From NCBI RefSeq assembly GCF_021554725.1, contig NZ_JAIZDP010000001.1, forward strand, positions 248,001-312,000: a stretch of 64,000 bases of DNA, given 5' to 3'. Below, in pieces: positions 2,214-63,365 of the stretch. The first letter of the stretch is position 1. Each line of letters opens with the position of its first letter. The position numbers and the translations under genes are program-made. The stretch comes from Sinomonas notoginsengisoli (lineage in GTDB: Bacteria > Actinomycetota > Actinomycetes > Actinomycetales > Micrococcaceae). The notes beneath the pieces were generated by a model that saw only the letters and a list, made by a program, of their open reading frames with translations, was not told the DNA's origin and ran no database searches.

Positions 2214-2247
2214 GACGCACGACGGCGAGCGGTCGCCGTCGTGCGTC
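2214..2247. terminator. Bidirectional terminator between the lipoate ligase and merA
   Basis: A perfect 15-bp inverted repeat (GACGCACGACGGCGA, 2214-2228, with its complement at 2233-2247) around the loop GCGG, between two convergent genes. Both arms carry the dispersed 12-mer CGCCGTCGTGCG. Confidence 0.75.
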
Positions 2248-2255
2248 GGGTCGCC

Positions 2256-3686
2256 TCACGCGGCGCAGCAGGACAACATCGAGACGTCCGCCGTGAAGGC
2301 CTGGGCCGCGATCCGCAGCCCCTCCGACATGGTGAGGTACGGCGCCCACCGGTGAGCCAGCTCCGAGACGGTGGTGCCCGTCTCGATGAGGTGGACAGCT
2401 GTCGCGGCCAGTTCGCCTGCGTCGCGGGCCACGGCGGTGGCGCCGATGATGCGTCCCGTGCCGCGTTCAGCGACGACCTTGATGAATCCCCTGGTGTCCC
2501 GGTCGACGAGGGCGCGCGGGACATACTCCAGAGGGAGAACGCGGCACTCGCACCGGATCCCCGCGGCGTGGGCCTGCGCCTCCGTGAGTCCCGCGACCCC
2601 GAGCGCCGGGCTCGTGAACGCGACCCGGGGGAGTGCGCGGGTCGAGAGCGTCTTCTCAGTTCCCGTGAGCGCATTCTCAGCCGCGACCGCACCCTGGGCG
2701 GCCGCGACGTACACGAACTCGGGTCCGCCCGTCACGTCGCCGGCCGCCCAGATCCGGGCGTTCGACGTCGCCTGGCGGCCGTCCACGATGACCTCACCGC
2801 TCGTGCCGGTTGCCACGCCCACGCGGTCGAGACCCAACCCGTCGGTGACTGGTCGGCGTCCGGTGGCCACCAGCAGCTGCGCCGCGCGGAACTCGCGCCG
2901 CTGCCCCCCGACGTCGACGGTCGCGACGACGCATCCGGCGTCCGTGCGGGCAACGGCGACTGGCACCGCCTTGCGGACCGTCACGACGCCCTCGTCGGCC
3001 AGAGCGTCCTCGAGGGCCCGGGAGGCCTCGGGCTCCTCGTGAGAGACGAGCCGCGTGCGCGCGAGGATCATCACGGCCGTGCCCAGGCGGGTGAACAGCT
3101 GGGCCATCTCGAGCGCCACGTACCCGCCTCCGAGCACCATCATCGACTCGGGGACGGCGTCCAGCTCCATCGCCGTCGTCGACGTCAGGTAGGCCACGTC
3201 GTCGAGCCCGGCGAGGTCGGGAGCCCACGGCGAGGACCCCGTGGCGAGAAGATAGTGGCGCCCCCGGATGGCCGTCCGCTTCCCGTCGGCAAGCGTGACG
3301 GCGAGGACGGGGTCCCCGGCAGTACCATCGAACGCGGCGTGTCCGGGGTAGAAATCCCAGCCGTAGGCGTCGATGAGGCTCTCGTACTTCGTGGCACGCA
3401 TCCGGTCTACGAGCGACTGTTTGCCCGCGATAAGGGCGCCCATGTCTATCACGCCTGGCGTTGCCGCAATGCCGGGGTACCTTTCCGCGTCGATGGCGGT
3501 GTGGTGGACTCCGGCTGCGGCGAGCAGGGCTTTCGAGGGGATGCACCCGGTATTGGTGCACGTGCCGCCGAGCGCGCCTCCGTCCACGATGGCGACGCTC
3601 CCGCCCAGGCGCGACGCCTCGATCGCGGCCGCGAAGCCGCCCCCACCTGAACCGACCACCACGAGGTCATACGATGTGTCCGTCAT
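2256..3686 (-). CDS. merA: Mercuric reductase (MerA type, no N-terminal HMA domain)
   Basis: A 476-residue FAD/NAD(P) disulfide oxidoreductase that reduces Hg(II) to Hg(0) in the cytoplasm. Near the N-terminus it has the FAD-binding GSGGGGFAAA and the redox pair in GGTCTNTGCIPSKA. It ends SMLSCCAA, whose vicinal cysteine pair is the MerA signature that takes Hg(II); lipoamide dehydrogenases lack it. A longer reading to 3701 would start inside the operator. ATG 3686 is preferred because the -10 ends six bases before it, predicting a leaderless mRNA. It is divergent from the merR-like gene. No merT, merP or merB is nearby. Confidence 0.88.
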   Translation of the reverse strand: MTDTSYDLVVVGSGGGGFAAAIEASRLGGSVAIVDGGALGGTCTNTGCIPSKALLAAAGVHHTAIDAERYPGIAATPGVIDMGALIAGKQSLVDRMRATKYESLIDAYGWDFYPGHAAFDGTAGDPVLAVTLADGKRTAIRGRHYLLATGSSPWAPDLAGLDDVAYLTSTTAMELDAVPESMMVLGGGYVALEMAQLFTRLGTAVMILARTRLVSHEEPEASRALEDALADEGVVTVRKAVPVAVARTDAGCVVATVDVGGQRREFRAAQLLVATGRRPVTDGLGLDRVGVATGTSGEVIVDGRQATSNARIWAAGDVTGGPEFVYVAAAQGAVAAENALTGTEKTLSTRALPRVAFTSPALGVAGLTEAQAHAAGIRCECRVLPLEYVPRALVDRDTRGFIKVVAERGTGRIIGATAVARDAGELAATAVHLIETGTTVSELAHRWAPYLTMSEGLRIAAQAFTADVSMLSCCAA

Positions 3687-3692
3687 AGCGGT

Positions 3693-3740
3693 AGCCTGCA
3701 CCTTCCCCTCTACGGGAAGGTCAAGTACGGGAAGGTCAAG
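3693..3740 (-). promoter_or_regulatory. merA promoter with MerR-type operator
   Basis: On the minus strand: TTGACC, then the palindrome ACCTTCCC-N6-GGGAAGGT (3700-3721), then CAGGCT (3693-3698). The 20-bp spacer is the over-long spacing that MerR proteins correct by twisting DNA. A second half-site, TTGACCTTCCCGTAC, is repeated directly upstream (about 3725-3739). Predicted +1 is the A of the merA ATG. Confidence 0.8.
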
Positions 3741-3764
3741 CGGACCCTGAGCGTTGAGAAGAGT

Positions 3765-4154
3765 ATGCGCATTGCAGAGGCCGCCGCAGCGGCGGGCACC
3801 ACCGAGAAGGCCTTGCGGTACTACGAGTCAATCGGCCTCTTGCCGGGCGTGGGCAGGACTGCCTCTGGGTACCGGGACTTCGACGTGGAGGACGTGAACC
3901 GCGCCGCGTTCATCCGCCGCAGCCGCCAGGCTGGGATGAGCCTGGAGCGGACAGCGAAGATCCTCTCCGCGTTCGACATCGGCGGGGACGCGTGCACCTC
4001 GGTCGGCGTGCAGCTCGAGCGCCAGCTCGGCGAGCTCGATCGCCGTATCGCAGAACTCCAAGGGCTGCGCGACGCCGTGGCCGAGCGCTACGACGCCGTC
4101 AAGGCCGCGGACCCCGCAGCGTGCGACCACGGACAGGTCTGCAGCTACCTCTGA
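3765..4154 (+). CDS. MerR-family metal-responsive regulator
   Basis: 129 residues. An N-terminal winged helix-turn-helix (MRIAEAAAAAGTTEKALRYY) is followed by the dimerisation coiled coil. Cysteines at 77, 120 and 126 match the three-cysteine Hg(II) site of MerR (Cys82, 117 and 126 in Tn501 MerR). With the divergent merA and the MerR operator between them, the simplest reading is a mercury-responsive activator of merA. ZntR- and PbrR-like sensors also use a cysteine at the first position, so Cd, Zn or Pb sensing is not excluded. Confidence 0.85.
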   Translation: MRIAEAAAAAGTTEKALRYYESIGLLPGVGRTASGYRDFDVEDVNRAAFIRRSRQAGMSLERTAKILSAFDIGGDACTSVGVQLERQLGELDRRIAELQGLRDAVAERYDAVKAADPAACDHGQVCSYL

Positions 4155-4190
4155 CGCCGTGTCATCGGCGAAGGCACGGCAGCGAGCAGC

Positions 4191-4832
4191 TCACGCGCGC
4201 CGGATCACGGCGTGCGCGGCGCCCTCGCCTGCCACGATTGGATCGCACGCATAGCCCACGGGCGGGACGCCGTCGCCGAACAGCCGCTCGCCCACGCCGA
4301 GGAACACCGGGGCGATGGCGATATGCAGTTCGTCCACAAGGCCCTCGGCGAGGAACGCTCGCACGGTCGAGACACCCCCGCCAAGCCGGACGTCGCGCCC
4401 GCCAGCGGCCTCGACCGCCATGGCGAGGACCTCACCCGGCGGGCCCTGGACGAAGTGGAACACTGTCTCGCCGTCCATCGGCAGGTCGGGGCGCGGGAAG
4501 TGCGTCATGACGTAGACGGGGTGGTGGTACGGTGGCTCCTCGCTCCACCAGCCCCGCCACGACTCGTCGGGCCACGGGCCGCGGACCGGGCCGAACATGT
4601 TCCGACCCATGATCGTCGCGCCGATGCCGTCCTCGCCCGCGCGCAGGAAGTGGTCGTCGATGCCCGTGGTGCCGCCCTCCTGTCCGATCATCGCGCGCCC
4701 CGTCCGGGTCTTGAACACCCACTCGTGGAGCGCTTCAGCGCCCACTCCGAGGGGAGCCTCGACGCTCTGCTCGAGGCCCGCACCGAACCCGTCCAGCGAT
4801 ACCGCGAAGTTGTGGACCCTGAGTCCTGCCAT
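4191..4832 (-). CDS. Dihydrofolate reductase / RibD C-terminal domain protein
   Basis: 213 residues of the RibD_C/DHFR-like fold, opening MAGLRVHNFAVSLDG and containing IMGRNMFGP and the NADPH-binding DVRLGGGVSTVRAFL. This family is common in Actinobacteria as stand-alone reductases of unknown substrate; it is distinct from folate-pathway FolA and from bifunctional RibD, since the deaminase domain is absent. It follows pepN by 17 bp with an AAAGGA ribosome site, so the two are probably cotranscribed. Confidence 0.8.
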   Translation of the reverse strand: MAGLRVHNFAVSLDGFGAGLEQSVEAPLGVGAEALHEWVFKTRTGRAMIGQEGGTTGIDDHFLRAGEDGIGATIMGRNMFGPVRGPWPDESWRGWWSEEPPYHHPVYVMTHFPRPDLPMDGETVFHFVQGPPGEVLAMAVEAAGGRDVRLGGGVSTVRAFLAEGLVDELHIAIAPVFLGVGERLFGDGVPPVGYACDPIVAGEGAAHAVIRRA

Positions 4833-4849
4833 GCCCGCAGTCCTTTCCC

Positions 4850-12565: not shown

Positions 12566-12596
12566 ACGGCGGCGCAGGCCGCCCCGCCGTCGTGCA
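12566..12596 (-). terminator. Hairpin between glgC and the SDR-like gene
   Basis: ACGGCGG (12566-12572) pairs with CCGCCGT (12584-12590), downstream of the glgC stop on the minus strand. The right arm overlaps a one-mismatch copy of the dispersed 12-mer (CGCCGTCGTGCA, 12585-12596). Confidence 0.4.
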
Positions 12597-12609: not shown

Positions 12610-14052
12610 TCAGCGACCGATCTGACTGGCGGCGGACGACGGCGAGGACGCGCCGTCGTGCGCCGGCTCACTGGAGACGGCACGCTCCGCCGCGGCCGCG
12701 TGCATCTCCTGGATCTTCTCGGCGACCTCGGGCATCTCGGCAGCGACGTCCTCGAGGATGGCCGGGACCTTGGAGGTCCAAGCGGCGGCGAGTCGGCGCT
12801 CGTCCTCTTCCGGCTCGGGAACCTCTTGGCCCTTGGACAGCACCGTGATGCCGGAGGCGGTGACCTCGAAGCCGCGGCGGCGGTCGAGCTTCTCGTCGAC
12901 GCCGATCGTCGCCCCGGCCGGTACCACGACGTTCTTGTCGAGGATGGCGCGGTGCACAACGGCTCCCGCTTCCACGCGTACCCCATCCATGAGGACGGAG
13001 TCGAGCACCCGCGCCGCCGTGTTCACGCGCACGTCGTGCGAGAGGACCGAGCCCTCCACGATGCCGCCGGAGATGACCACACCGCTGGCCACGATCGAGT
13101 CCAGCGCCGTGCCCACGGTCCCGCCCGTGCCGCGGACGAACTTCGCCGGCGGCGAGACGGTCTGGCGGGTATAGAAGGGCCACTGCGCGTTGTACAGGTT
13201 GAATACCGGCAGGGGGGAGATGAGGTCCATGTGCGCGTCGTAGAACGAGTCGAGCGTGCCCACGTCGCGCCAGTAGGTGCGGTCCCGGCCGGTGGAGCCG
13301 GGGATCTCGTTCTTCGTGAAGTCGTAGACGCCTGCCTCTCCGCGCTCCACGAAGAAGGGGATGATGTCTCCGCCCATGTCGTGTTTGGTGTCGAGCCGCT
13401 CTGCGTCGCTCCTGAGGGCGTCGACGAGGGCATCGGCATCGAACACATAGTTGCCCATGGACGCGAGGAACTGCTCGGGGTCGTCGGAGAGGCCAGGCGT
13501 GGTGGCTGGCTTCTCGACGAACGCGGAGATCATCGATGGGTTGGCGGTATCCGTCTCGATGACGCCGAACTGGTTGGCCATGTCCAGCGGCTGGCGCACT
13601 GCGGCCACCGTGGCCTTGGCGCCCGAGGCAACGTGGGAGGCGACCATCTGGGAGAAGTCCATGCGGTACACGTGGTCCGCCCCGACCACGACGACGATGT
13701 CGGGCTGGGAGTCATGGATGAGGTTGAGCGACTGGTAGATCGCGTTGGCGCTGCCGAGGAACCAGCTCTTGCCGACCCGCTGCTGCGCGGGGACCGAGGC
13801 CACGTAGTTGCCCAGCTGGGGCGAGAGCCGCCACGTCTCCGAGATATGTCGGTCCAGAGAATGCGATTTGTACTGCGTGAGGACGACAATCTGGAGATAT
13901 CCGGAATTCACAAGATTGGACATCGCGAAATCGATGAGCCGGTAACCCCCGGCGAACGGCACGGCCGGCTTGGCCCGATCCGCCGTCAAGGGCATGAGGC
14001 GCTTCCCCTCACCGCCGGCGAGGACGATCGCCAATACCTTCTTCGGTGCCAC
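12610..14052 (-). CDS. glgC: Glucose-1-phosphate adenylyltransferase (ADP-glucose pyrophosphorylase)
   Basis: 480 residues. The N-terminal nucleotidyltransferase domain has [20 protein letters not shown] and ADHVYRMD; the C-terminal part is a left-handed beta helix. It makes ADP-glucose from ATP and glucose-1-phosphate, the donor used by the divergent glgA. It is about 60-70 residues longer than usual: the extension after [15 protein letters not shown] is Ala/Glu-rich and ends in a low-complexity tail containing AHDGASS, encoded by the dispersed repeat. The GTG at 14052 is preceded by GGGGG, and homology starts at [14 protein letters not shown]. Confidence 0.93.
12636..12662. repeat. Dispersed 12-mer forming a palindrome in the glgC tail
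   Basis: ACGACGGCG (12636-12644) and CGCCGTCGT (12651-12659) form a 9-bp inverted repeat inside the last codons of glgC; the right arm is the exact 12-mer CGCCGTCGTGCG (12651-12662). In the glgC frame it reads AHDGA. Confidence 0.7.
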
Positions 14053-20169: not shown

Positions 20170-21609
20170 ATGGCAGACAAGTACACCGACCTCGTCTCGC
20201 GCGGATGGGGCCGGGACCTCGCCAAGCGCCTCGGGCTCCCACAGCCGGTGATGCTGCGCCGCTACGAGCCCGGCGTGCCCCTCGTGCCCGGGCCCGTGCT
20301 GGTCGTCGGCACCGGTACGGCGGCCGACGCGCTCGAGACCGCGCTCAAGGGCTGGGATGTGGAGGTAGTCCGGGACGCCGGGGTCGCGCCCGCCACCGGT
20401 GGGAGGCACGACGCCGGTGCGCCGCCGACGTCGTCCGCCTCGCCTTCCGCCCCGGCTGGACCGGGGACAGCGGCGGGCGAAGGCTCGCCGAAGCTCGGCG
20501 GAATCGTGCTCGCACTCGATGCCGTTGCGCGGCCAGAGGACCTCTCAGGACCGATCCTCGCGGCCGGACGCGCGCTGCGCTCGCTCGCGCCGAGCGCGCG
20601 GGTCGTGACGGTGTCACGGCGATCCTCGACCTCCGACGAACCTGCCCTGGCTGCTGCTCGCTCGGGCGTCGAGGGGGCGCTGCGCTCGCTGGCCAAGGAG
20701 CTCCGCAACGGCGGCACGGGCAACGGGATCCTGCTGGGCGAGGGCGTTCAGGCCGATGCACCGAGCGTGCTCGGGGCGCTGCGGTTCCTGCTCTCCGGGC
20801 GGTCGGCGTTCGTGGACGGACAGTTCCTCACGGTCGGGACCGCCAAGGGGGAACTGCCGGCCGACCCCGACCACCCGCTGGCGGGCAAGGTCGCCGTGGT
20901 GACCGGGGCCGCGCGGGGCATCGGGGCCGCCATCGCCCGGACGCTCGCGCGGGACGGGGCGAAGGTCGTAGTCGTCGACGTTCCCGCAGCCGGGGATTCT
21001 CTCGCGAAGGTTGCCAACGAGGTGCGCGGCACCGCCCTCCAGCTCGACATCACGAAGCCGGATGCAGGGGAGCGGATCCTCGAGCACGCCCTGCACCGCC
21101 ACGGCGCATTCGACGTCCTCGTCCACAACGCCGGCATCACGCGGGACAAGCTCCTGGCCAACATGGACGTGGCCAGGTGGGACTCCGTGATCGCCGTGAA
21201 CATCGCGGCGCAGCTGCGGATCAACGAGGCGCTGCTCGCGTCCGGGAAGCTCGGCGAGGGGTTCCGGATCGTCTCGGTCGCATCGACATCGGGCATCGCG
21301 GGCAACCGCGGGCAGACCAACTACGCGGCGTCGAAGGCCGGAGTAATCGGCATGGTCCGCTCCACCGCGGCGCGCCTCGCCCCGATCGGCGGCACCGCCA
21401 ACGCCGTGGCGCCGGGGTTCATCGAGACCGAAATGACGGCGAAGGTCCCGCTTGCGATGCGGGAGGTTGGACGCCGGATCAACTCGCTCCAGCAGGGCGG
21501 CCAGCCCGTGGACGTGGCGGAGGCAATAGGGTTCTTGGCCTCTGATGCGGCGGGAGGAGTCTCGGGTAACGTCCTGCGCGTGTGTGGTCAATATTGGATG
21601 GGCCAATGA
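20170..21609 (+). CDS. fabG4: High-molecular-weight 3-oxoacyl-(ACP/CoA) reductase, FabG4-like
   Basis: 479 residues: an N-terminal flavodoxin-like domain of about 210 residues fused to a classical SDR with VVTGAARGIGAAIARTLARD, the NAG motif in LVHNAGITRD and catalytic NYAASKAG (YxxxK intact). This architecture matches mycobacterial FabG4 (Rv0242c), an NADH-dependent 3-ketoacyl-CoA reductase. Residues about 72-105 are a Gly/Ala/Pro/Ser-rich insert that looks like a disordered loop. It overlaps the following MaoC gene by four bases. Confidence 0.9.
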   Translation: MADKYTDLVSRGWGRDLAKRLGLPQPVMLRRYEPGVPLVPGPVLVVGTGTAADALETALKGWDVEVVRDAGVAPATGGRHDAGAPPTSSASPSAPAGPGTAAGEGSPKLGGIVLALDAVARPEDLSGPILAAGRALRSLAPSARVVTVSRRSSTSDEPALAAARSGVEGALRSLAKELRNGGTGNGILLGEGVQADAPSVLGALRFLLSGRSAFVDGQFLTVGTAKGELPADPDHPLAGKVAVVTGAARGIGAAIARTLARDGAKVVVVDVPAAGDSLAKVANEVRGTALQLDITKPDAGERILEHALHRHGAFDVLVHNAGITRDKLLANMDVARWDSVIAVNIAAQLRINEALLASGKLGEGFRIVSVASTSGIAGNRGQTNYAASKAGVIGMVRSTAARLAPIGGTANAVAPGFIETEMTAKVPLAMREVGRRINSLQQGGQPVDVAEAIGFLASDAAGGVSGNVLRVCGQYWMGQ

Positions 21610-22547
21610 GCGCCCCCGCGCGCGGCTCAGCGCGAGGCGGGATCGAGACGGTTGAGCTGCCCGAGGTCCCCTCGCTCTCGAAGCTGTATGTCGCGGCCGC
21701 AGCCGAGGCTGCGCGGCTCATGATCTCCCGGGGCAGCGGCGCGCGGCGACTTCCGAGCGCGAAGCACCATGTCGCCGTCGTGCGCCCGGATCTGGCCAAA
21801 CTCACGGAGTACCAGCACCTGCTCGGGGAGGCCGCGCGTGACGCAATGCCCGCCGGGTACCTGCACGCGCTCGCGTTCCCGGTGGCGATGGGCTTCATGG
21901 GCCGCGAGGACTTCCCCCTGCCGCTGCTCGGAATGGTGCACCTGCGCAACCACGTGGAGTACCGAGAGCCGGTGACCTACAACGATCTGCTCGACGTGAC
22001 GGCGTGGGCCGAGAACCTGTGCGGCCACCGTGCCGGGACGCAGGTTGACGTGGTGGCCGAGGTGCGCCGCGTCGGGGAGGCCGAGCCGGTGTGGAGGGGC
22101 GTTTCGACGTACCTCGCCAAAGGCGTGTTCCTTCCCGGGGTCGACAAGCGCGGCGCCTCCGAGGTGCGCGAGGACTTCCGCCCGCCGCTGCCCACGGCGT
22201 TGTGGCAGCTGGGGTCCCAGACAGGGCGCGCGTACGCGGCCGTGTCGGGGGACTTCAACCCCATCCACCTCAGTTCCATCTCGGCTCGTGCCCTGGGGAT
22301 GCGGCGCTCCATTGCCCATGGCATGTACACGGCCTCGCGGGCGCTTGCGGAGGTGGGGACCGTCAAGGGCGACTCGTTCGTGTGGGACGCAAAGTTCGAG
22401 GCACCCGTGTTCCTGCCCGCGCGGGTGGCCGTGAACATCACCGACATCCCCGACGACGAGGATGCGTGGGAGCGGTCCGAGTTCGTGGGCTGGAACTCAA
22501 AGTCGGGCCGGCGCCACTTCGTGGGGTCGGTCTCCCGGCTCGCCTGA
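21606..22547 (+). CDS. MaoC-family (R)-specific enoyl hydratase, HtdX-like
   Basis: 313 residues with two hot-dog halves. The C-terminal half carries the hydratase 2 motif: SGDFNPIHLS with the catalytic Asp and His, then MRRSIAHGMYTASRA. The N-terminal half lacks it and is probably structural, as in mycobacterial HtdX (Rv0241c). It hydrates or dehydrates (R)-3-hydroxyacyl thioesters made by the coupled FabG4. A strong hairpin follows, so it ends the operon. Confidence 0.9.
   Translation: MSAPARGSARGGIETVELPEVPSLSKLYVAAAAEAARLMISRGSGARRLPSAKHHVAVVRPDLAKLTEYQHLLGEAARDAMPAGYLHALAFPVAMGFMGREDFPLPLLGMVHLRNHVEYREPVTYNDLLDVTAWAENLCGHRAGTQVDVVAEVRRVGEAEPVWRGVSTYLAKGVFLPGVDKRGASEVREDFRPPLPTALWQLGSQTGRAYAAVSGDFNPIHLSSISARALGMRRSIAHGMYTASRALAEVGTVKGDSFVWDAKFEAPVFLPARVAVNITDIPDDEDAWERSEFVGWNSKSGRRHFVGSVSRLA
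21773..21784. repeat. Dispersed 12-mer inside the MaoC gene
   Basis: Exact CGCCGTCGTGCG, read here as part of VAVVRPD; the conserved codons suggest that this copy sits in a frame tolerated by the fold. Confidence 0.6.
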
Positions 22548-22558: not shown

Positions 22559-22608
22559 GACGCACGACGGCGCCGCTCACCCGTGTGGTGAGTGGCGCCA
22601 TTCGCGTC
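22559..22608 (+). terminator. Terminator of the thiolase-fabG4-maoC operon
   Basis: A long hairpin: GACGC/GCGTC base, internal bulge, then GGCGCCGCTCAC with GTGAGTGGCGCC (one G-U). The left arm holds an exact copy of the dispersed 12-mer (22561-22572). Confidence 0.7.
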
Positions 22609-23040: not shown

Positions 23041-23085
23041 ACGACGGCGCCGCCGCCCACGCGTGGTGAGCGGCGGCGCCGTCGT
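23041..23085 (-). terminator. Terminator of the alcohol dehydrogenase gene
   Basis: A perfect 16-bp stem ACGACGGCGCCGCCGC (23041-23056) with its complement (23070-23085) and a 13-nt loop, 38 bp past the adh stop codon. The right arm includes the exact dispersed 12-mer (23077-23088). Confidence 0.65.
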
Positions 23086-23122
23086 GCGCCCTCAGAGCAT
23101 CTGGAGGCTCGCCGGGTGTGGC

Positions 23123-24076
23123 CTACTCGTACATCGCGATGAACCGGCCGATCACGCCGCCGGCGCGCAGCTTGTCGATTGCCTCGGGGATGTCAGCCTG
23201 CGTGATGAGGTTCATCGGCGGGTTCAGCTTGCCCGTCTTCATGAGCTCGTAGATGCCCTCGAGGTCCTCGCGCGTGCCGGACTTGGACCCCTTGACCGTG
23301 AGCTGGTTGATGATGATCGGGTACGTGTTGATGGTCGCCTCCAGGCGGCCCATGCCCACCTGCACAAGGGTGCCGAACTCGGCCAGGGTTTCGATGGCCG
23401 CTGCCGTCGTCGTGCCGAAGCCGGCGTAGTCGACGATGAGGTCGAGCTTCTTGTCCTTGAAAGCATCGATCGAGTCGGCAACGCCCGCGAGCCCGATCTC
23501 GTCGGCGAGCTTCTGCGTCTCCGGGTTGACCTCGGCGCCGTAGACCTCGGCTCCGGACAGTACGGCAACGCGGGCTCCGATGTAGCCGAGGCCGCCGAGG
23601 CCGATCACGCCGACCCTCATGCCCGCCTTGGCCGCGCCCGCGGTCATCATCGCGTGGTAGGCGGTCAGGCCCGCGTCGGTGGCCATGGCGCCGAGGTCGA
23701 ACGGGACCTCGTCGGGCAGCCGGACGAGGTTGTCCGCAGTAGCCACGAGTTTCGGACCGAACCCGCCGTCCCACCGGCCGTAGCCGAGGGCGTCGCCGTC
23801 CTTCATGACGGGGGCGAGGCCCACCCGGTCGCCCACCTTCCACTGCTCCATGCCCTCGCCGACCTCGGTGATGACGCCGGCGTTCTCGTGCCCCATGGTG
23901 CGGGGAAGGACGGGGAAGAGCGGCATCCAACCCGGGTCGTCGAGCGCGGTGACGTCCGAGTGGCACACACCCGCGGCCTTCACCTCGACGACGACCTGCC
24001 CCGGGCCAGCGTGCGGCTCTGGGACCTCGTTGAACGCGAGCGGATTGCTGGTACCGGTGAACTGCCATGCCTTCAT
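23123..24076 (-). CDS. Zinc-dependent alcohol dehydrogenase, short form lacking the structural-zinc lobe
   Basis: 317 residues of the medium-chain dehydrogenase family. The catalytic zinc site is visible: Cys in AAGVCHSDVTAL and His-Glu in TMGHENAGVI. The NAD-binding motif GLGGLGYIGARVA follows. Where most bacterial ADHs have four cysteines binding structural zinc, this one reads GLAPVMKDGDALGYGRW with no cysteine, which explains its length (about 30 residues short). Substrate is unknown. It has an AAGGAGAT ribosome site and a TAGAGT -10 at 24155-24160, giving a leader of about 70 nt. Confidence 0.88.
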   Translation of the reverse strand: MKAWQFTGTSNPLAFNEVPEPHAGPGQVVVEVKAAGVCHSDVTALDDPGWMPLFPVLPRTMGHENAGVITEVGEGMEQWKVGDRVGLAPVMKDGDALGYGRWDGGFGPKLVATADNLVRLPDEVPFDLGAMATDAGLTAYHAMMTAGAAKAGMRVGVIGLGGLGYIGARVAVLSGAEVYGAEVNPETQKLADEIGLAGVADSIDAFKDKKLDLIVDYAGFGTTTAAAIETLAEFGTLVQVGMGRLEATINTYPIIINQLTVKGSKSGTREDLEGIYELMKTGKLNPPMNLITQADIPEAIDKLRAGGVIGRFIAMYE

Positions 24077-24255: not shown

Positions 24256-24342
24256 TGGTGCGCGGAGGGGGACTTGAACCCCCACGCCCTATTCGGGCAC
24301 TAGCACCTCAAGCTAGCGCGTCTGCCATTCCGCCACCCGCGC
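24256..24342 (-). tRNA. tRNA-Leu (anticodon GAG)
   Basis: An 87-nt class II tRNA. The acceptor stem GCGCGGG pairs with TCCGCGC; the discriminator is A, and CCA is encoded (24256-24258). The anticodon loop reads CTTGAGG, giving anticodon GAG for CUC/CUU leucine codons. A variable arm (GTGCCCGAATAGGGCGT) is as expected for tRNA-Leu, and the T-loop GGTTCAAGTCC is intact. A TAGAGT -10 (24400-24405) lies upstream and a hairpin immediately downstream. Confidence 0.96.
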
Positions 24343-28568: not shown

Positions 28569-28574
28569 GGTGTG

Positions 28575-29852
28575 GTGAAAACCTGGAGGCAGACCCCCGT
28601 CCCGCAGCTGCCTGGCACGGCCGGCCCCGTCCGGCTCTTCGACACCCAGCTGCGTGACACCGTCGAGATCCCGACGGGGCCTGAGCAGTCCATGTACGTC
28701 TGCGGAATCACCCCGTATGACGCGACGCATCTCGGCCACGCCTCCACCTACCTCGCCTTCGACCTTCTCAACCGCGTCTGGCGCGACGCCGGCAGCATCG
28801 TTAAGTACGTGCAGAACACGACCGATGTGGACGATCCCCTCCTCGAGCGCGCCGACGCGACCGGCGTGGACTGGCGAACCCTCGCGCACCGGCAGATCGA
28901 CCTCTTCCAATCCGACATGGAGGCCCTCCGGGTCCTCGCCCCGGACCACTATGTGGGCGCGGTGGAGTCGATCCCGTGGATCGTGCCCGAGGTCGAGCGG
29001 CTCCTCGACGCCGGCCTCGCCTACCAGCTCGCAGGCGCCGAGGGCGAGCCCGACGGCGACGTCTACTACGACGTCACCGAGGCCACCCGGCGCGCCGACG
29101 TGCCGGAAGCATGGCGCCTCGGGACGGTCTCACACCTCACGGTCGGCGAGATGATCGAGGTCTTCGGAGAGCGCGGCGGCGACCCCGAGCGCCCCGGCAA
29201 GCACAGCCCCCTCGACCCGATCCTGTGGCGCGAGGCACGCCTCGGCGAACCGCGCTGGGACGGGGGGACGCTCGGCCCCGGCCGGCCGGGCTGGCACATC
29301 GAGTGCACCGTCATCGCACAGAGGTTCCTACCGGCCCCCTTCACCGTCCAAGGAGGCGGCGCGGACCTCGCGTTCCCGCACCACGAAATGGGTGCAGGCC
29401 ATGCCTGGAGCATGCACCACGTGCCCCTCGCCAGGCACTTCACGCACACGGGCATGGTCGGGCTCGACGGGGAGAAGATGAGCAAGTCCCGCGGAAACCT
29501 CGTGCTCGTGTCAAAGCTGAGGGCAGCCGGCGTTGAGCCAGCCGCCATCCGCCTGGCGGTCTTCGCCCACCACTACCGCTCCGACTGGGAGTGGACCGGC
29601 GAGCTGCTCGACGCGTCGTTGCGCCGCCTCGAGACCTGGCGCCGCGCCGTCGTGCGCGCCCTGCCCGGCTCCGCGGAACCGCTCCTGGCCGAGATCCGCG
29701 GCGCCCTCACCGAGGATCTGGACGCGCCGCGCGCGCTGGCGGCAGTGGACAAGTGGGCCGACGACTCGCTCGCCGGCACGGAGGCGAGCATGCACGACGG
29801 CGCGCTGGCCTCCTCCGCGATTGACGCGCTCCTGGGCATTGAGCTGGGCTAA
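28575..29852 (+). CDS. mshC: L-cysteine:GlcN-inositol ligase (mycothiol biosynthesis)
   Basis: 425 residues. A class I aminoacyl-tRNA-synthetase fold close to CysRS but shorter: [21 protein letters not shown] carries the zinc-ligand cysteine and the HxGH motif, [10 protein letters not shown] a second zinc ligand, and KMSKSRGN the KMSKS loop. It lacks the CysRS anticodon-binding tail. It ligates cysteine to GlcN-Ins in mycothiol synthesis, the thiol buffer of Actinobacteria. GTG 28575 is preferred over the GTG one codon earlier because of the -10 spacing. Two copies of the dispersed repeat lie in the 3' third. Confidence 0.95.
29645..29656. repeat. Dispersed 12-mer inside mshC
   Basis: Exact CGCCGTCGTGCG, read as AVVR. 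A one-mismatch copy in the opposite orientation is at 29791-29802, where it reads MHDGA. Confidence 0.6.
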
Positions 29853-42131: not shown

Positions 42132-44138
42132 GTGTCCGAAGCCAACACCTCGCGCCTGCTGAACCTGCTCATCGCCCTTCTGCACACTGAGCTGGGGATC
42201 TCCCGCGAGCGGATCCTGAGGGACATCTACGGCTTTGAGGACGCGCACGACGGCGCGAGGGCGGCTCAGTCGTCGAGGGAAACCGACAGGGAGCGGGTCC
42301 TCAGGAAGTTCGAGCGGGACAAGGCGACGCTCCGCGCGATGGGCGCCGACATCCGGGAGCGCGAGGGCTACGCACGCGAGAGCGACGAGGACACGACATC
42401 GCTGTACCGGATCGACCCTCAGGGCTTCAGGCTCCCGCCACAAGCCTTCACAGCGGAGGAGTCCGCCTGGCTGGCCCTCGCCGCGCTCGTCTGCGAGGGT
42501 GCTGTGGCCGGCGCGGAGGCCCAGCGTGCCCTGAGGCGGCTCGAGGCGGCCGGGGCGCTCCCGGAGACCCCGCCCTCCCAGGTCCAGCCCCGCCTGCGGC
42601 TCGACGAGCCCCACTGGGACGTGCTGACCGAGGCTGCTCACCGCGGTTCAGTTGTCGAGTTCGAGTACTTCGCCGCGAGCACGCGGGAACGCACAAGGCG
42701 CCGACTCCAACCGTGGGGCCTCGGACAGCGCTACGGGCAGTGGTACGTCGCGGGGCACGACCTCGACCGGGACGCGACCCGTGTCTTCCGGCTCTCGCGG
42801 ATCCGCGGGACGGTGGCCGTCGGCGAGCCGGATGCGTTCCCTCCGCCTGAGCCGGGTGCTCTGGGCAGGGCGCTCGCCGGGCTCGACGAGCTGCCGGATC
42901 GGAGCGCGCGCCTGCGCATCGCCGAGGACCGCGCGCTTGACCTGCGCCGAGAATGGACGCTCGACGTCCGCGGCCCCGACGGCTGGGACACCGGCACCTA
43001 CACGTTCCGCGACGTCTCGGTCGCGGCGGAGCGTATCGCAGGCTTTGGAGATGCCGTGATCGTCGAGGAGCCCGCCGACCTCGCGGCCGCGGTAGCCGCA
43101 CGGTTCACGGGTGCACTCGAAGCCCTCGGCACCCCGGGTGCACCGGAAGCGCCTGGCGCGAAGGCATCGCGGAAGATCACGACTGGCAAGGAGAGGCTCG
43201 AACGGCTCACGGATTTGGTCCCGTACCTGCTCCCCGGTCCCGTGGCGATTGAGGAGGTCGCGGACCGGTTCGGGCTCACCGTGCGGCAGGTGCGCAGCGA
43301 GCTGGAGCTTCTCCAAGAAGCGGGACCCATCGATTCGGGCGGCTTCCAGAGCTACATCGAGATCATCCTCGATGACGGCATTGTCTCCATTGCGAACGCG
43401 GACGAGCTCTCCCGTCCCCGCCGACTCACGCCCGCCGAGGCGGTCACGCTCCAGCTTGGGCTACAGGCACTCGCCCCGCTCGTGCCCGCGCAGCAGCGCC
43501 CAGCACTGGGCGAGCTCTCGGCGAAGGTCGCCGCAGCAGCCATCGAGGGGCTCCGCGGTCTGCCCGAGATCGATGTCGCGAACGAGCCGAGCCGGAACGC
43601 CGGCCTCGTGCCCCTGCTGGCAGAGGCCGCACGGGAGGGGCGCACCGTCAGGCTCGTCTACCTCAACCCGACCAAGGACGAGCGGACCGAGCGCCACATC
43701 AACCCGATCTCCGTCGCAGCGGACGGAAACAGGTGGTACGTCAACAGCTACTGTCACCGAGCCGGCGAGCGGCGCGTCTTCCGCATCGACCGGATCGAAT
43801 CTGTGGAGCCCGCCCCACCGCTGCCGCTCCCCGAGGGGTTCGACGCCGGCGAGGATGCCCTCTTCATGCACGGGGCCGGCGACCTCGAGGCGACGGTGCG
43901 TCTAGCCCCCGAGGCACTCTGGGCCGAGACGAGCTTCGACGCCCATGACGGGCGCGACCTCGCCGACGGCAGCCGCCGGACGATCCTTCGCATCTCCGAC
44001 CCGGCATGGCTCCCGTCCTTCCTCGCCCAGTTCGGTGGCGGCGTGGCCCTCGAGTCGCCCGCAGCGGCCGTCGAGGCAAGCCGCGCATGGCTCCAGCGGG
44101 CCCTCGCACCGTACGCGCCCCGCCCGGCGACCAGATAG
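42132..44138 (+). CDS. pafBC: PafBC fusion: WYL-domain transcriptional activator of the DNA-damage response
   Basis: 668 residues formed by tandem PafB and PafC modules, each with winged helix, WYL and C-terminal extension domains; they are separate genes in mycobacteria and fused in Arthrobacter. First module: LLNLLIALLHTELGISRERI then WGLGQRYGQWYVAGHD; second: RLTDLVPYLLPGPVAIEEVA then ISVAADGNRWYVNSYC. PafBC activates the recA-independent DNA-damage regulon through RNA polymerase. The N-terminal wing carries an insert, FEDAHDGARAAQSSRE, encoded by the dispersed 12-mer. Confidence 0.93.
   Translation: MSEANTSRLLNLLIALLHTELGISRERILRDIYGFEDAHDGARAAQSSRETDRERVLRKFERDKATLRAMGADIREREGYARESDEDTTSLYRIDPQGFRLPPQAFTAEESAWLALAALVCEGAVAGAEAQRALRRLEAAGALPETPPSQVQPRLRLDEPHWDVLTEAAHRGSVVEFEYFAASTRERTRRRLQPWGLGQRYGQWYVAGHDLDRDATRVFRLSRIRGTVAVGEPDAFPPPEPGALGRALAGLDELPDRSARLRIAEDRALDLRREWTLDVRGPDGWDTGTYTFRDVSVAAERIAGFGDAVIVEEPADLAAAVAARFTGALEALGTPGAPEAPGAKASRKITTGKERLERLTDLVPYLLPGPVAIEEVADRFGLTVRQVRSELELLQEAGPIDSGGFQSYIEIILDDGIVSIANADELSRPRRLTPAEAVTLQLGLQALAPLVPAQQRPALGELSAKVAAAAIEGLRGLPEIDVANEPSRNAGLVPLLAEAAREGRTVRLVYLNPTKDERTERHINPISVAADGNRWYVNSYCHRAGERRVFRIDRIESVEPAPPLPLPEGFDAGEDALFMHGAGDLEATVRLAPEALWAETSFDAHDGRDLADGSRRTILRISDPAWLPSFLAQFGGGVALESPAAAVEASRAWLQRALAPYAPRPATR
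42244..42255. repeat. Dispersed 12-mer inside pafBC
   Basis: Exact CGCACGACGGCG, read as AHDGA in a loop of the first winged helix; it looks like an insertion relative to the family. Confidence 0.6.
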
Positions 44139-56673: not shown

Positions 56674-56680
56674 CCACCTC

Positions 56681-58690: not shown

Positions 58691-58703
58691 GATCTGCGGC
58701 GCC

Positions 58704-59363: not shown

Positions 59364-59369
59364 AGCGCA

Positions 59370-59375
59370 AGCCTA
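59370..59375 (-). promoter_or_regulatory. -10 of def, built on the lipoprotein stop codon
   Basis: TAGGCT on the minus strand; its TAG (59373-59375) is the stop codon of the upstream gene. Confidence 0.45.
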
Positions 59376-60296
59376 GGGCCGCTGACCCGTCCATCCGCAG
59401 GCCGAGCCGACGAAGCCGTACAGCGCCGCGCGTAGTGCGGGTGACGCCTCGGCCTTGACGACACCCGAGGAGTCGCCTGCTTCAAGTCTTAACGGGATGA
59501 GGGTGCCGACCTTGTCCTCGGCGACGACATGGGGATCGCAGCGGGCAGGACGGACGGAGAGCTTCACCGTGCTGCCGGGGGCGAGGACGACGCCGCGGGG
59601 CCAAGGCTGTGCCGGGTCCTCCGCCAGGAGCGTGGTTCCCTCCACCGAGGTGAGCGTCACGGAGGCCCTCCGTGGGGCGCCGGCGCCCCACGGCCCCCCG
59701 GTGGAGAGCCCGGCGGTGGCGGGGGCCGAGGGTGGCCCGGCGCGGAGAGTGAGTACGGTGGTTTCCGCCTCAGCGCTCGGTTCGAGGGTGTCGTCGAGGC
59801 GCAGGGCCACCAGTGAGGCCACTGTGGCCTCGAAGCATCCCTGGGTGTGGATGCGGCCGAGTACGGCGTGCGGATCAGTGGCACGCACGAGCCGCTCGGT
59901 GCCATCGGCGAGCCGCAGGCGGACGGAGGGCGCGGCGTCTTCAGCGGCGGGGGTGTCGTCCGTTGATGGAGCGGCGCATCGGGGACTGGCCGCAACGGCG
60001 GGCAGGCTCGTGGTCTGCCCCGGCTCGAACCGGGTGGACCCGGTCCAGACGGCGCCGTCGGCGAATCGCGGGTCGCTCAGCTCGGCCCGGACCAGGGTGA
60101 ACCCCGAGACGGACGTGTTCGTGACCTGCAGGACAATGGTTCCGCTCGCGTACCCGTCCCTGAACTGGTCAACGGCGACGGTCATGGGGCCGTTGCTCGC
60201 GGACGGGGACGGTGGTTCGGGCGGTGGCGAGCACGCCGTGGCCGTGCTGAGGGCGGCTGCGAGCAGCAGTGCTCCGAAGAGCCCGCGCGGATGCAT
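59373..60296 (-). CDS. Predicted lipoprotein of unknown function
   Basis: 307 residues. The signal MHPRGLFGALLLAAALSTATAC (Cys22 lipidated) is followed by a Pro/Ser linker and two beta-rich segments (VLQVTNTSVSGFTLVRAELS; KLSVRPARCDPHVV) that look like immunoglobulin- or fibronectin-like folds. It has four further cysteines, which may form disulfides outside the cell. I recognise no family. It precedes def on the same strand and may be cotranscribed with it. Confidence 0.7.
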   Translation of the reverse strand: MHPRGLFGALLLAAALSTATACSPPPEPPSPSASNGPMTVAVDQFRDGYASGTIVLQVTNTSVSGFTLVRAELSDPRFADGAVWTGSTRFEPGQTTSLPAVAASPRCAAPSTDDTPAAEDAAPSVRLRLADGTERLVRATDPHAVLGRIHTQGCFEATVASLVALRLDDTLEPSAEAETTVLTLRAGPPSAPATAGLSTGGPWGAGAPRRASVTLTSVEGTTLLAEDPAQPWPRGVVLAPGSTVKLSVRPARCDPHVVAEDKVGTLIPLRLEAGDSSGVVKAEASPALRAALYGFVGSACGWTGQRP

Positions 60297-60316
60297 GTGT
60301 CCAGCGTGGCACATCC

Positions 60317-61204
60317 CTATCCGGCGCGGTTCACGAGGTCGAGGAAGTCCCTCGCACTGCGGGGGAGCGGTGCACCTGCGTCCCACACGGCCCGCAGCAC
60401 GCGGCCGAGACGCAGCTGCGGCGTCGGCACCTCTACCACACGGCTGGCCCGCAACGCGGCCTGGACCGCGAGCCGGCTCACGACCCCGGGGCCGAGCCCC
60501 GCGGCGACGCTCGCCACGAGCGCCGCGTTGCTGCCCACCTCAAAGCGCGCACCAGCGCCGAACGGGGCGAGGGCCAGATCAGCCGTCTGCCGCGTGCCCG
60601 AGCGAGGCTCCCGCACCACGAGGCCGGCCGAGGCAACAGCGTCAGGCGAGATCGCGCCGTCGTGCGCCCAGGGATGGTCGGGGCGGACGATGACGACGAG
60701 CTCGTCCCGACCCACCTCGAGGTAGCGGAAGCCCGTCTGCACCGTGGGCCCCTCGACGAAGCCGAGATCCGCCGCACCGGAGCGCAGGCGGTCGAAGACC
60801 TCGTCCGAGTTGCCCACGTCGAGGGTCGTGGTCACGGACGCGAGCCGCTGCTGCGCCGCAGCCAGCCAACCCGGCATGAGGTGCTCAGCGACCGTGAGGG
60901 ATGCGCAGAGGTGGAGGCTGCCGCGGCCGCCCTCGAGCGCTCCCACGGAACGCGCCACACTCTCCGCGGCCTCCACCACCTCGGCGGCGAGGCCAGCCAC
61001 CACGCGGCCGCGGTCGGTCAGGCGTGTTCCACGCGGTGTGCGGCGCGCGAGCGGGAAGCCGGCCGAACGCTCCATCTGCTCAAGGAGGCGCGAGGCATTG
61101 GGCTGGGCCATCCCAGTGCTGCGCGCCGCGGCTCCGATGCTCCCCTCGGAAGCGAGCGCGGCGAGGAAGCGGTAGTGCCTCAGATCCCAGTCACGAACGC
61201 TCAT
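60317..61204 (-). CDS. LysR-family regulator
   Basis: 295 residues. Winged helix LRHYRFLAALASEGSIGAAARSTGMAQPNASRLLEQME at the N-terminus, then a periplasmic-binding-like effector domain. It is divergent from the YeiH-type transporter; in other bacteria LysR-type YeiE regulates yeiH, so control of that gene is likely. ATG 61204 lies six bases after TATGCT. The loop WAHDGAIS in the effector domain is an exact copy of the dispersed 12-mer. Confidence 0.88.
   Translation of the reverse strand: MSVRDWDLRHYRFLAALASEGSIGAAARSTGMAQPNASRLLEQMERSAGFPLARRTPRGTRLTDRGRVVAGLAAEVVEAAESVARSVGALEGGRGSLHLCASLTVAEHLMPGWLAAAQQRLASVTTTLDVGNSDEVFDRLRSGAADLGFVEGPTVQTGFRYLEVGRDELVVIVRPDHPWAHDGAISPDAVASAGLVVREPRSGTRQTADLALAPFGAGARFEVGSNAALVASVAAGLGPGVVSRLAVQAALRASRVVEVPTPQLRLGRVLRAVWDAGAPLPRSARDFLDLVNRAG
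60655..60666. repeat. Dispersed 12-mer inside the LysR gene
   Basis: Exact CGCCGTCGTGCG; in the lysR frame (minus strand) it reads AHDGA. Confidence 0.6.
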
Positions 61205-61210
61205 ATCTGA

Positions 61211-61216
61211 AGCATA
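61211..61216 (-). promoter_or_regulatory. -10 of a leaderless promoter for the LysR gene
   Basis: TATGCT on the minus strand, six bases before the ATG; it lies in an ATAT-N7-ATAT partial palindrome that could be the LysR site. Confidence 0.4.
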
Positions 61217-61275
61217 TGGCCGGCATGCCGAATTGCCGTCTACCGACGATGCCCGGCGGTCGAGACGATAGGAGC

Positions 61276-62313
61276 ATGGCAGCCCCAGGACCCGCGACAC
61301 CGCGCTCGACCACCGAGGCTGCCCCGCGCTCCACACGCCAGCCTCTCAGCCGCGCCGTGCCGGGGCTGGCTGTCGCGCTCACGGGCGCCGCGGTCGCGGT
61401 CGGAGCTGCAGCGCTCGTCCCAGGCCTCAGCCCGCTGCTCGTGGCGATAGTCCTCGGCATCGCCCTCCGCAACCTCGGGCTCCTGTCCGCACGGCTCGCC
61501 CTTGGGCTCGCCGTCGCAGCCCGTGTCCCGCTGCGGGCAGGAATCGTCGTCCTCGGCCTCCAGCTGTCCCTCAGGGACCTGGCCGCCCTGGGCTGGGGCA
61601 TTCCCGCGATCGCGGCGACGGTCGTCGTTACCGGGATCCTCGCGACCGTGCTCCTCGGGCGTCTCCTGCGTGTCCCGGCACGCCAGGCGCTCCTGGTGGC
61701 CTGTGGATTCTCGATCTGCGGTGCAGCCGCGGTAGCGGGTGTCGAATCGGTGGTGGACGCCGACGAGGAGGATACCGTCACAGCCGTGGCCCTCGTGGTC
61801 CTCTTCGGTACCCTGATGATCCCCGCCGTCCCCCTGCTCGCGGGGATTCTCGGACTCGATACGCGAACAACCGCGCTGTGGGCCGGATCGAGTGTGCACG
61901 AGGTCGCCCAGGTCGTCGCCGTGGGAGGCCTGCTCGGGAGTGGCGCGCTCGCGCTTGCCATCACGGTCAAGCTCGCCCGCGTCCTCATGCTCGCGCCCGT
62001 CGCAGCCGTGCTCTCATGGCGGCAGCGCCGCACCGGATCCTCAGGCGGAAAGCGGCCGCCCATCGTCCCGCTCTTCGTCCTCGGCTTCGTGGGGCTCGTG
62101 GCCGCGCGGACCGCGATGCCTATCCCGTCTGAGGTGCTCTCCATGGCATCGGCCCTGCAGACCTTCCTGCTCACGACGGCGATGCTCGCCCTGGGCACCG
62201 GCGTCCAGATCCGCTCGCTCGTGCGGCGCGGAGGCAAGACGCTAGCCCTCGCGGGGGGCTCGACACTCATGGTCGGGGCAGTTGGCCTTGCCGGCGCCCT
62301 CATCGTCGCGTGA
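61276..62313 (+). CDS. YeiH/UPF0324 family putative anion (sulfonate/sulfate) exporter
   Basis: 345 residues with about ten membrane segments. Family blocks: LVAIVLGIALRNLG, VACGFSICGAAAVAG (the conserved CG repeat) and TALWAGSSVHEVAQVVAVGG. Substrates proposed are sulfate or related anions. The ATG at 61276 is a conservative choice; in-frame ATGs at 61249 and 61216 are possible, and none has a convincing ribosome site. Confidence 0.85.
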   Translation: MAAPGPATPRSTTEAAPRSTRQPLSRAVPGLAVALTGAAVAVGAAALVPGLSPLLVAIVLGIALRNLGLLSARLALGLAVAARVPLRAGIVVLGLQLSLRDLAALGWGIPAIAATVVVTGILATVLLGRLLRVPARQALLVACGFSICGAAAVAGVESVVDADEEDTVTAVALVVLFGTLMIPAVPLLAGILGLDTRTTALWAGSSVHEVAQVVAVGGLLGSGALALAITVKLARVLMLAPVAAVLSWRQRRTGSSGGKRPPIVPLFVLGFVGLVAARTAMPIPSEVLSMASALQTFLLTTAMLALGTGVQIRSLVRRGGKTLALAGGSTLMVGAVGLAGALIVA

Positions 62314-62351
62314 CCCATAGCTGTCCTCGCGACATGGCGGTCATCGCGGCG

Positions 62352-62357
62352 TAGGCT
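62352..62357 (+). promoter_or_regulatory. -10 of the EamA promoter
   Basis: TAGGCT, followed by a leader of about 27 nt with GGGAGG (62381-62386). Confidence 0.4.
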
Positions 62358-62390
62358 GGGGCCCCGAACCCGGATCTGCAGGGAGGCGAC

Positions 62391-63365
62391 ATGGGAGGCC
62401 CACGCCGTGACCACGGCCTGGGTGTCGCCTGCGTCCTCGGGGCCTCGGTCCTGTGGGGCACCACCGGTACGGCCTCGTCCTTCGCCCCAGCAGTGACACC
62501 CCTTGCCATCGGGGCGGCCTCAATGGGCTTCGGCGGGCTCCTTCTGGCCGCCACCTCGGGCCGCCAGACCGCCCGCCAGCGGCACGAGCTCGCGCGATCG
62601 TGGAGGCCCATCCTGATCGGCGGGGCCGCGGTGCTCGTCTACGCCGTCGCCTTCTACACCTCGATGCGTCTCGCTGGAGTGGCTATCGGCACCGCCGTGT
62701 CGATCGGCGGCGCACCCGTTGCCGCTGCCCTGCTCGAGCGCATCGTCGACGGCCGGCAGCTCTCAGGGCGGTGGATCGCCGGCGCGGCGCTCGGCACCGC
62801 CGGGGCGGTGGTCCTGTGCCTTGTGCGCGGCATAGGTGATTCCCGTTCCCCGTCCGGCGAGGCGGCCCAGACGGTGGCGGGGGTGGCGCTCGGGGCTCTC
62901 GCAGCGGCGTCGTACGCCCTCTACTCGTTCACGAGCCACCCAATAATCCGCGGGGGCGTGGGCTCGCGGGCCGCCGTTGGCGCCACGTTCGGCACCTCGG
63001 CGCTCGGCCTGCTCGTCGTCCTGGCGTTCACGGGCGGGGCCTTCCTCGACTCATGGGGGAACATCGCGGTCGGCGCATACCTGGCCGCGGTGCCGATGTT
63101 CGCCGGGTACATCCTGTTCGGCTGGGGACTGAGCGGCGTTCCCGCGAGTACTGCCACGACGGTGTCCCTGGCCGAACCGGTCGTCGCGGCCTTCCTTGCG
63201 GTCGTGGTGGTGGGGGAGCGGCTTCCGCCGGCCAGTTGGCTCGGCATGGCCCTCATCGTCGCGGGCCTCGCCGTGCTCGCGGTTCCGGTGCCGGCACGGG
63301 CGGGCCTGCGCCGTCGTGCGCCGGCGGTTTCAGCCGACGTCAACGCACTGGAGGCGAAGGGGTAG
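62391..63365 (+). CDS. EamA-family transporter (DMT superfamily)
   Basis: 324 residues, ten membrane segments arranged as two EamA repeats: GASVLWGTTGTASSFAP opens the first and VALGALAAASYALYSF the second. Substrates of the family include amino acids and metabolites; specificity is unknown. The C-terminus is a short basic tail (LRRRAPAVSADVNALEAKG) encoded partly by the dispersed 12-mer. A PHP-domain gene begins two bases after its stop. Confidence 0.88.
   Translation: MGGPRRDHGLGVACVLGASVLWGTTGTASSFAPAVTPLAIGAASMGFGGLLLAATSGRQTARQRHELARSWRPILIGGAAVLVYAVAFYTSMRLAGVAIGTAVSIGGAPVAAALLERIVDGRQLSGRWIAGAALGTAGAVVLCLVRGIGDSRSPSGEAAQTVAGVALGALAAASYALYSFTSHPIIRGGVGSRAAVGATFGTSALGLLVVLAFTGGAFLDSWGNIAVGAYLAAVPMFAGYILFGWGLSGVPASTATTVSLAEPVVAAFLAVVVVGERLPPASWLGMALIVAGLAVLAVPVPARAGLRRRAPAVSADVNALEAKG
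63309..63320. repeat. Dispersed 12-mer in the EamA tail
   Basis: Exact CGCCGTCGTGCG near the 3' end of the gene, encoding part of the basic tail RRRAP. Confidence 0.6.

Follow-up and report, generated by a model that had tools for sequence, protein, structure and literature searches.

A short DNA word enriched throughout Sinomonas genomes and its resemblance to DNA uptake sequences

A 12-bp word occurs ten times in a 64,000-nucleotide stretch of the Sinomonas notoginsengisoli genome (contig NZ_JAIZDP010000001.1, positions 248,001 to 312,000; this whole stretch is referred to below as the window), and the locus raises the question of why one such word should recur both in genes and in the spacers between them. 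The original prediction for this region had listed these ten exact copies together with one-mismatch copies at 12585, 18736, 29791 and 56247, and had put the chance expectation at far less than one copy. All of these copies are present, seven of the exact ones on the + strand and three on the − strand, and the estimate holds, with 0.13 exact copies expected from dinucleotide shuffles and 0.16–0.31 from Markov models of order 2–4; allowing at most one mismatch, the window has 25 sites, where shuffles average 4.45. We compared the word across 15 Sinomonas genomes (this one included), 33 other members of the family and 30 genomes of the order. Because its features match those described for the DNA uptake sequence (DUS) of Neisseria and the uptake signal sequence (USS) of Haemophilus, we lean, by analogy, towards reading the word as a DNA uptake sequence of the same kind.

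Frequency and placement of the word

The 3.59 Mb genome contains 333 exact copies (172 on the + strand and 161 on the −, or about 93 per Mb), compared with four copies of the reversed word (one and three per strand). Finer counts were made in an 864 kb sample composed of the window and a further 800 kb, all within a single 1.2 Mb contig (C1), to which the figures in this section refer unless stated otherwise; genes were predicted with a simple codon-usage caller made for this analysis, not a published gene finder. The expectation that the word would stand clear of a third-order Markov background at larger scale proved correct, as the sample holds 77 exact copies where 2.17 are expected at order 3 and 2.75 at order 4, and it is the most enriched of all 12-mers with at least 25 copies. 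Some single variants are enriched too, at position 3 (G, 37 copies; T, 17), position 10 (C, 29) and position 12 (T, 23), and those at positions 1, 2 and 4–8 stay close to background. At position 13, 73 of the 77 copies have a pyrimidine (46 C, 27 T) and the other four a purine. The fuller consensus, based on exact counts and intergenic base counts, is CG(C>G,T)CGTCGT(G or C)C(G>T)Y, and GGTGAGCGG lies upstream of several copies. An iteratively grown position-weight matrix was discarded because it expanded from 206 to 4336 sites and drifted into codon-phase signal.

Forty-five of the 77 copies lie in predicted genes and 32 are intergenic, although spacers make up 12.4% of the DNA (p 2e-10). Against the 45 coding copies observed, shuffling of synonymous codons retains 6.2 (at most 10 across 20 shuffles), and an order-2 spacer model predicts 0.0 intergenic copies against 32; in 480 kb of the relative G002 there are 30 coding copies against 4.4 after synonymous shuffling, and 22 intergenic ones. 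From the two excesses in our own genome we conclude that the DNA word itself is favoured, and not a peptide or a base composition. Since shuffling of all codons leaves 1.6 coding copies, fewer than the synonymous shuffle keeps, the results also suggest that peptide content has shifted towards the word. A recurring AHDGA reading frame had been claimed for the coding copies; an xHDGx frame does recur, in 20 of the 45, but AVVR accounts for 15 and other frames for ten. An artefact of composition, codon-pair bias or a protein motif could draw on the coding excess of the related word CGCCGTCGTC in other high-GC genera (see below), but the counts just given refute it for the 12-mer in our genome and in G002, and the plasmid-like contigs of another relative, similar in GC, lack most of the excess; we give it almost no credence.

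Orientation and spacing are informative as well. The extended word CGNCGTCGTSCG occurs 107 times on the + strand and 85 times on the − (p 0.13), and no relation to GC skew is evident by eye across the sample. A word of the Chi or KOPS (FtsK-orienting polar sequence) type, guiding recombination or oriented with replication, would likewise be short, over-represented and non-palindromic. This near balance of strands, albeit in one contig in which the origin and terminus were not located, counts against that explanation and against the segregation motif first proposed, and pairs of opposite orientation would nullify any signal of direction; we consider it very unlikely. Such pairs are the rule among close neighbours: of 12 pairs of extended words starting less than 120 bp apart, ten are inverted (− then +), two are direct and none has the + then − arrangement. 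The 32 intergenic exact copies fall in tandem (14), convergent (11) and divergent (7) gaps, although convergent gaps constitute 13.5% of spacer DNA (p 0.002), and 21 of them are within 75 bp of the 3′ end of a gene. Inverted pairs of a nine-base core number 18–70 per genome in all 15 Sinomonas genomes (control, 0–1), 0–28 in the other 33 family members and 0–14 in the 30 genomes of the order.

Conservation, dialects and plasmid-like contigs

Conservation was assessed with a single species pair, our genome and G002, which are 83% identical over aligned DNA. Among 35 copies in 464 kb of our genome, nine are unaligned in G002, seven touch gaps and 19 are gap-free; 12 of these 19 are identical, four differ by one base, two by two bases and one by three. 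Identity is far less common among flanking 12-mers (6.3%) and 12-mers of the same composition (13.3%; binomial p 6e-7 for 12 of 19). Under a looser rule, requiring no gap on our side only, seven of 12 coding and six of eight intergenic sites are identical. The coding flanks of the copies carry 2.97 mismatches per 12 bases against 1.94 for all coding 12-mers, and with sites conserved while their flanks are unusually divergent, the word is evidently kept in otherwise fast-changing, permissive places. In the reciprocal comparison, 480 kb from G002 hold 52 copies, of which 16 are unaligned, seven gapped and 29 gap-free; of the last, 12 are identical, ten differ by one base, two by two, three by three, one by four and one by seven. 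Across five relatives the ten window copies range from one (21773) that is identical in all four genomes aligning there to two (12651 and 42244) that are identical in none.

With 19 of 26 aligned sites free of gaps, insertion is not the usual origin of the copies, and the proposal that the AHDGA segments are generally insertions finds no support; where these sites differ from G002, they do so by substitutions. The same figure bears on the suggestion that the word is a repetitive extragenic palindromic (REP) element, a mobile palindrome spread by a REP-associated tyrosine transposase (RAYT), with the coding copies as insertions. Short repeats and hairpin pairs at gene ends are indeed common to both. 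REPs seldom overlap coding sequence, as stated in the available part of PMC12306157, whereas more than half of the word copies (45/77) are coding; moreover, only ten inverted neighbour pairs were found among the 192 extended copies, and none of the 15 Sinomonas genomes has a match to the Y1/RAYT transposase family (Y1_Tnp, PF01797). We therefore regard a REP-like origin as highly implausible. A terminator stem homogenised through gene conversion, the coding copies being by-products, would account for the hairpins with the same stem, some with tails that by eye look rich in A and in T, in many Arthrobacter-group genomes, but not readily for coding copies at sevenfold the synonymous expectation or for the coding sites identical in G002, and it is improbable. 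Spread by gene conversion is the closest of the earlier ideas to the uptake reading, for in DUS systems it is the transformed fragments carrying the word that are favoured.

All 15 Sinomonas genomes have the word, in one of two dialects. Three of them with few 12-mers (G001, G007 and G011, the last with the lowest 12-mer count in the genus) are enriched instead for CGCCGTCGTC. Relative to CGCCGTCGTCC, CGCCGTCGTGCG is present at a ratio of 0.64–2.21 in all nine genomes (ours included) with at least 84% identity in the one marker protein used as the scale of relatedness, and 0.09–0.17 in all six with at most 82%. The two dialects, which differ mainly at position 10, are thus split with relatedness and without overlap. 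Their intergenic consensus sequences are otherwise much alike, with G in 65% at position 10 in one (our genome and G002, 174 copies) and C in 66% in the other (G001, G007, G011 and G010, 53 copies). In the spacers of G001 the word of the second dialect, B, is found eight times against 0.1 expected.

Plasmid-like DNA was examined in two relatives, G010 and G013, and DNA lacking a counterpart in our genome in one, G002. G010 is a three-contig assembly whose two smaller contigs (202.5 and 60.4 kb) were taken for plasmids as the extras of the assembly. They contain two copies of CGCCGTCGTCC in 260 kb, where 30.4 would be present if the 552 of the genome were evenly spread. In their genes CGCCGTCGTCC and CGCCGTCGTC hardly exceed the synonymous shuffle (2 vs 1.6 and 12 vs 9.4), in contrast to 140 kb of the G010 chromosome (7 vs 2.1 and 21 vs 5.3). 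The small contig of G013, taken for a plasmid on the same ground, has no copy of the 12-mer in the 80 kb examined. In G002, DNA without a counterpart in our genome has 41 copies of a looser word per 100 kb against 79 elsewhere, and exact copies are absent from a 30 kb block with 62% GC. The converse comparison, of blocks of our genome that are absent from G002 (4 copies in 26 kb, against 26 in 360 kb), was not used because it covers only 26 kb and its largest block (248001-261208) partly aligns with other relatives.

Likeness to uptake sequences

The DUS is read in Neisseria by ComP, a minor pilin of the type IV family, and to our knowledge tags that mark a cell's own DNA for uptake are known only in two Gram-negative families. 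The available parts of three papers describe the DUS of the Neisseriaceae (GCCGTCTGAA and its dialects) as a word of 10–12 nt found in genes and spacers, with inverted pairs serving as terminators, with dialects that follow phylogeny, and with greater conservation than its surroundings at permissive sites (PMC3630211, PMC2397512, PMC1852404); in the section available of Treangen 2008, DUS at permissive sites are 97% identical against about 85% (PMC2397512). The Sinomonas word has comparable traits: it is short, present in many copies in genes and spacers, paired in inverted fashion at gene ends, divided into dialects and conserved in permissive sites. It differs in its sequence, the shared GCCGTC being perhaps a coincidence, and in the phylum of its host. 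The USS of the Pasteurellaceae (AAGTGCGGT, ACAAGCGGT) are, in what is available of PMC12616744 and PMC1852404, likewise an enriched short word with two dialect types and terminator pairs, and the Sinomonas word resembles them in its enrichment, its two dialects and its putative terminator pairs, although it is unrelated in sequence and again from another phylum. The receptor of the USS, according to the same part of PMC12616744, has not been identified by experiment. None of the literature matches listed describes an uptake sequence from the Actinomycetota or from Gram-positives, and the nine papers whose text matched one of the words are, by title, unrelated.

Machinery that could act on such a word is encoded in the genome (Table 1). 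Adjoining comEA and comEC genes and a Tad/Flp pilus operon are present, although in the latter the second Flp pilin is named by sequence likeness only, and TadZ, TadA, TadB and TadC from gene order and domains. A precedent is found in the same family, the Micrococcaceae: Micrococcus luteus takes up DNA with Flp/Tad pili and has comEA and comEC without a comG cluster, and the portion available of the paper mentions no uptake sequence (PMC6370729). The partial set of competence genes in a Kocuria genome, described in the accessible part of PMC13388538, plays no part in the argument. In G011 the comEC matches are split over two contigs, and a large serine recombinase ORF (Resolvase and Recombinase domains; contig C14, L250:2658-4025) directly follows the comEC start, as if an integrative element had inserted in the gene.

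On the uptake reading, free DNA would be caught by the Tad/Flp pilus, by ComEA or by both, and a surface protein, possibly a Tad pilin or ComEA, would favour tagged over other DNA in binding. Tagged fragments would then enter through ComEC and be recombined into the chromosome, so that the tag, on either strand, would bias transformation towards DNA of the cell's own kind. Because tagged alleles would be taken up more often, molecular drive would accumulate the tag and keep it wherever protein or spacer tolerates it, genes included, and facing copies at gene ends would form hairpins that were probably co-opted as terminators, as in Neisseria and Haemophilus.

Several observations weigh against this interpretation. 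The density of exact copies is lower than that of classical DUS, of which there are generally at least 1,000 per genome according to the part of PMC1852404 available. Matches to comEC are found in 75 of the 78 genomes and HHH_3 proteins in 77, genomes without the word included, and being near-universal, they do not explain which genomes have the word; in G011 comEC is interrupted and the dialect-B word is still enriched. No type IVa pilin (PF07963) was matched in any of the 15 Sinomonas genomes, in contrast to the DUS systems, and no ComP-like reader was found thereby; nor are there transformation or uptake results for Sinomonas among the literature matches listed. The DNA of G002 without a counterpart in our genome is, again unlike the DUS case, only weakly depleted of exact copies (7.9 vs 11.4 per 100 kb elsewhere). 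In genes of the G010 plasmid-like contigs CGCCGTCGTGC is found four times against 0.8 (maximum 3), and in those of the small G013 contig CGCCGTCGTCC three times against 0.8 (maximum 2), so that the latter contig gives no support for depletion of CGCCGTCGTCC. Density is uneven along chromosomes: positions 1-100000 of G002, a single-contig genome with 663 exact copies, contain three, C1:1000001-1060000 of G013 contains none, and no enrichment is seen in the 80 kb from G010 that correspond to the window. The excess of CGCCGTCGTC in genes recurs in other genera (G054, 27 vs 10.8; G044, 17 vs 7.5) and is in part a general codon-context effect of high-GC genera, such that the case for dialect B rests on the spacers and the small contigs of G010. 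Finally, the 12-mer itself is found 69–101 times in G054, G071 and G072, which belong to other families (controls, 9–17), and 79 times in Serinibacter (control, 19).

The main rival is a chromosome-wide site for a nucleoid, repair or cell-cycle protein, or a word like HIP1 (highly iterated palindrome 1), maintained by selection at each site with no bias in uptake. HIP1 is an over-represented palindromic octamer of cyanobacteria, found in genes and spacers and of unknown function; the Sinomonas word is similarly short and over-represented in both, but is directional and paired at gene ends. Conservation, preference for the G010 chromosome and occurrence on both strands fit a protein site equally well. 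By itself such a site does not predict a one-base dialect switch that goes with relatedness, placement in locally divergent sequence or inverted pairs at gene ends, and the uneven density and the many sites unshared between species also speak against it; we judge it unlikely, while giving it serious consideration. The protein-binding motif among the original proposals is compatible with either explanation, as an uptake sequence also needs a binding protein. On balance we favour, by a modest degree of belief, a DNA uptake sequence.

Window copies, other genera and implications

The hairpins in the window bear out in part the claim that four of the exact copies form terminator stems. The copies at 2216 and 2234 form one hairpin (15 pairs, 4-nt loop, −43.6 kcal/mol, z −4.35) in the spacer that separates the gene for an lplAB-type lipoate ligase (1131-2189, +) from that for a pyridine nucleotide-disulfide oxidoreductase (2256-3686, −; above the cut-off of the NCBIfam model MerA); a consensus scan of 2000-2500 found no T-run terminator. 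The copies at 22561 and 23077 adjoin the 3′ ends of two convergent genes, but the predicted stem covers only part of the former, and the 36 nt tested at the latter fold no better than shuffles (z −0.34). A further hairpin, 12633/12651, falls in the tail at the C-terminal end of the glgC frame, which extends about 70 residues beyond the GlgC family match (12610-12822). By a hand count from gene coordinates, the six coding copies of the window comprise three in the xHDGx frame, two in AVVR and one in RRRA. The only tRNA gene found in the window is tRNA-Leu(GAG) (24256-24342, minus strand).

Table 1. Copies of the word in the window (window coordinates) and candidate uptake genes elsewhere on contig C1 (contig coordinates).
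Feature	Coordinates	Strand	Basis or state in relatives
Exact copy, left arm of hairpin	2216..2227	−	letters and fold
Exact copy, right arm of hairpin with 2216	2234..2245	+	letters and fold
Near-copy with one mismatch (G to C at position 10), left arm of the 12651 hairpin	12633..12644	−	
Exact copy, C-terminal tail of glgC (12610-14052, −), xHDGx frame	12651..12662	+	identical in 0/5 relatives
Exact copy, MaoC-domain gene (21606-22547, +), AVVR frame	21773..21784	+	identical in 4/5 relatives, fifth unaligned
Exact copy, intergenic, 13 nt beyond end of MaoC-domain gene	22561..22572	−	
Exact copy, intergenic, 34 nt beyond end of alcohol dehydrogenase-like gene (23123-24076, −)	23077..23088	+	
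Exact copy, mshC (28572-29852, +), AVVR frame	29645..29656	+	identical in 3/5 relatives
Exact copy, PafC/WYL-domain gene (42132-44138, +), xHDGx frame	42244..42255	−	identical in 0/5 relatives
Exact copy, LysR-type regulator gene (60317-61204, −), xHDGx frame	60655..60666	+	identical in 2/5 relatives
Exact copy, near end of EamA-transporter gene (62391-63365, +)	63309..63320	+	identical in 1/5 relatives
comEA, adjoins comEC	C1:359812-360447		own genome
comEC, start uncertain	C1:357962-359554		own genome
Tad/Flp pilus operon: two Flp pilins, TadE, TadG-like, CpaB, TadZ-like, TadA, TadB, TadC	C1:1064307-1071642		

Outside the genus the 12-mer ranges from 0 to 75 copies per genome among the 33 other family members and from 0 to 101 among the 30 genomes of the order; the named non-Sinomonas genomes, which were picked for having a hairpin, have 15–79. 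No intergenic copy was found in 80 kb of G054, and so the counts in G054, G071 and G072 may reflect composition and codon context. A hairpin scan yielded at least 113 stretches, of which 72 were used (18 from Sinomonas, 33 from the Arthrobacter group and 21 others) and L081, L084, L087, L099, L106, L110, L116, L139 and 33 further stretches were left out. In the spacers of the 33 Arthrobacter-group loci, a biased sample as these were chosen for a hairpin, CGCCGTCG is the commonest octamer outside the hairpins (48 in 46 kb). Eleven of the 21 other loci are from Streptomyces, and nine of these fall by eye into two groups of near-identical sequence.

Other words were found to be enriched locally. 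Positions 1-100000 of contig C1 of G001 (L199-L203) have 16 copies of GTACCCGAGA and eight of TACACCAACTCC, with well below one expected; C1:1000001-1080000 of G024 (L239-L242), a member of the family almost without the 12-mer, has enriched words of its own, such as GAGCCGACTG (11 vs 0.31); and the same interval of G037 (L227-L230) has nine copies of GACGCTGTCGCA in 80 kb against 0.01, which may be a local repeat.

We put at about even the broader proposition that high-GC Gram-positives (Sinomonas, joined by Arthrobacter-like Micrococcaceae whose core is looser) recognise their own DNA for transformation by a tag with dialects, read by a component of the Tad pilus or by ComEA, as a third independent origin of such a system. 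If this is true, tag-guided transformation would have one more origin, perhaps built on a different pilus, the receptor problem would be open to genetics in soil bacteria, and the recurring hairpins of the Arthrobacter relatives could be explained. Should uptake prove not to be the cause, the reshaping of coding sequence by one word across a whole genus would still demand an explanation.

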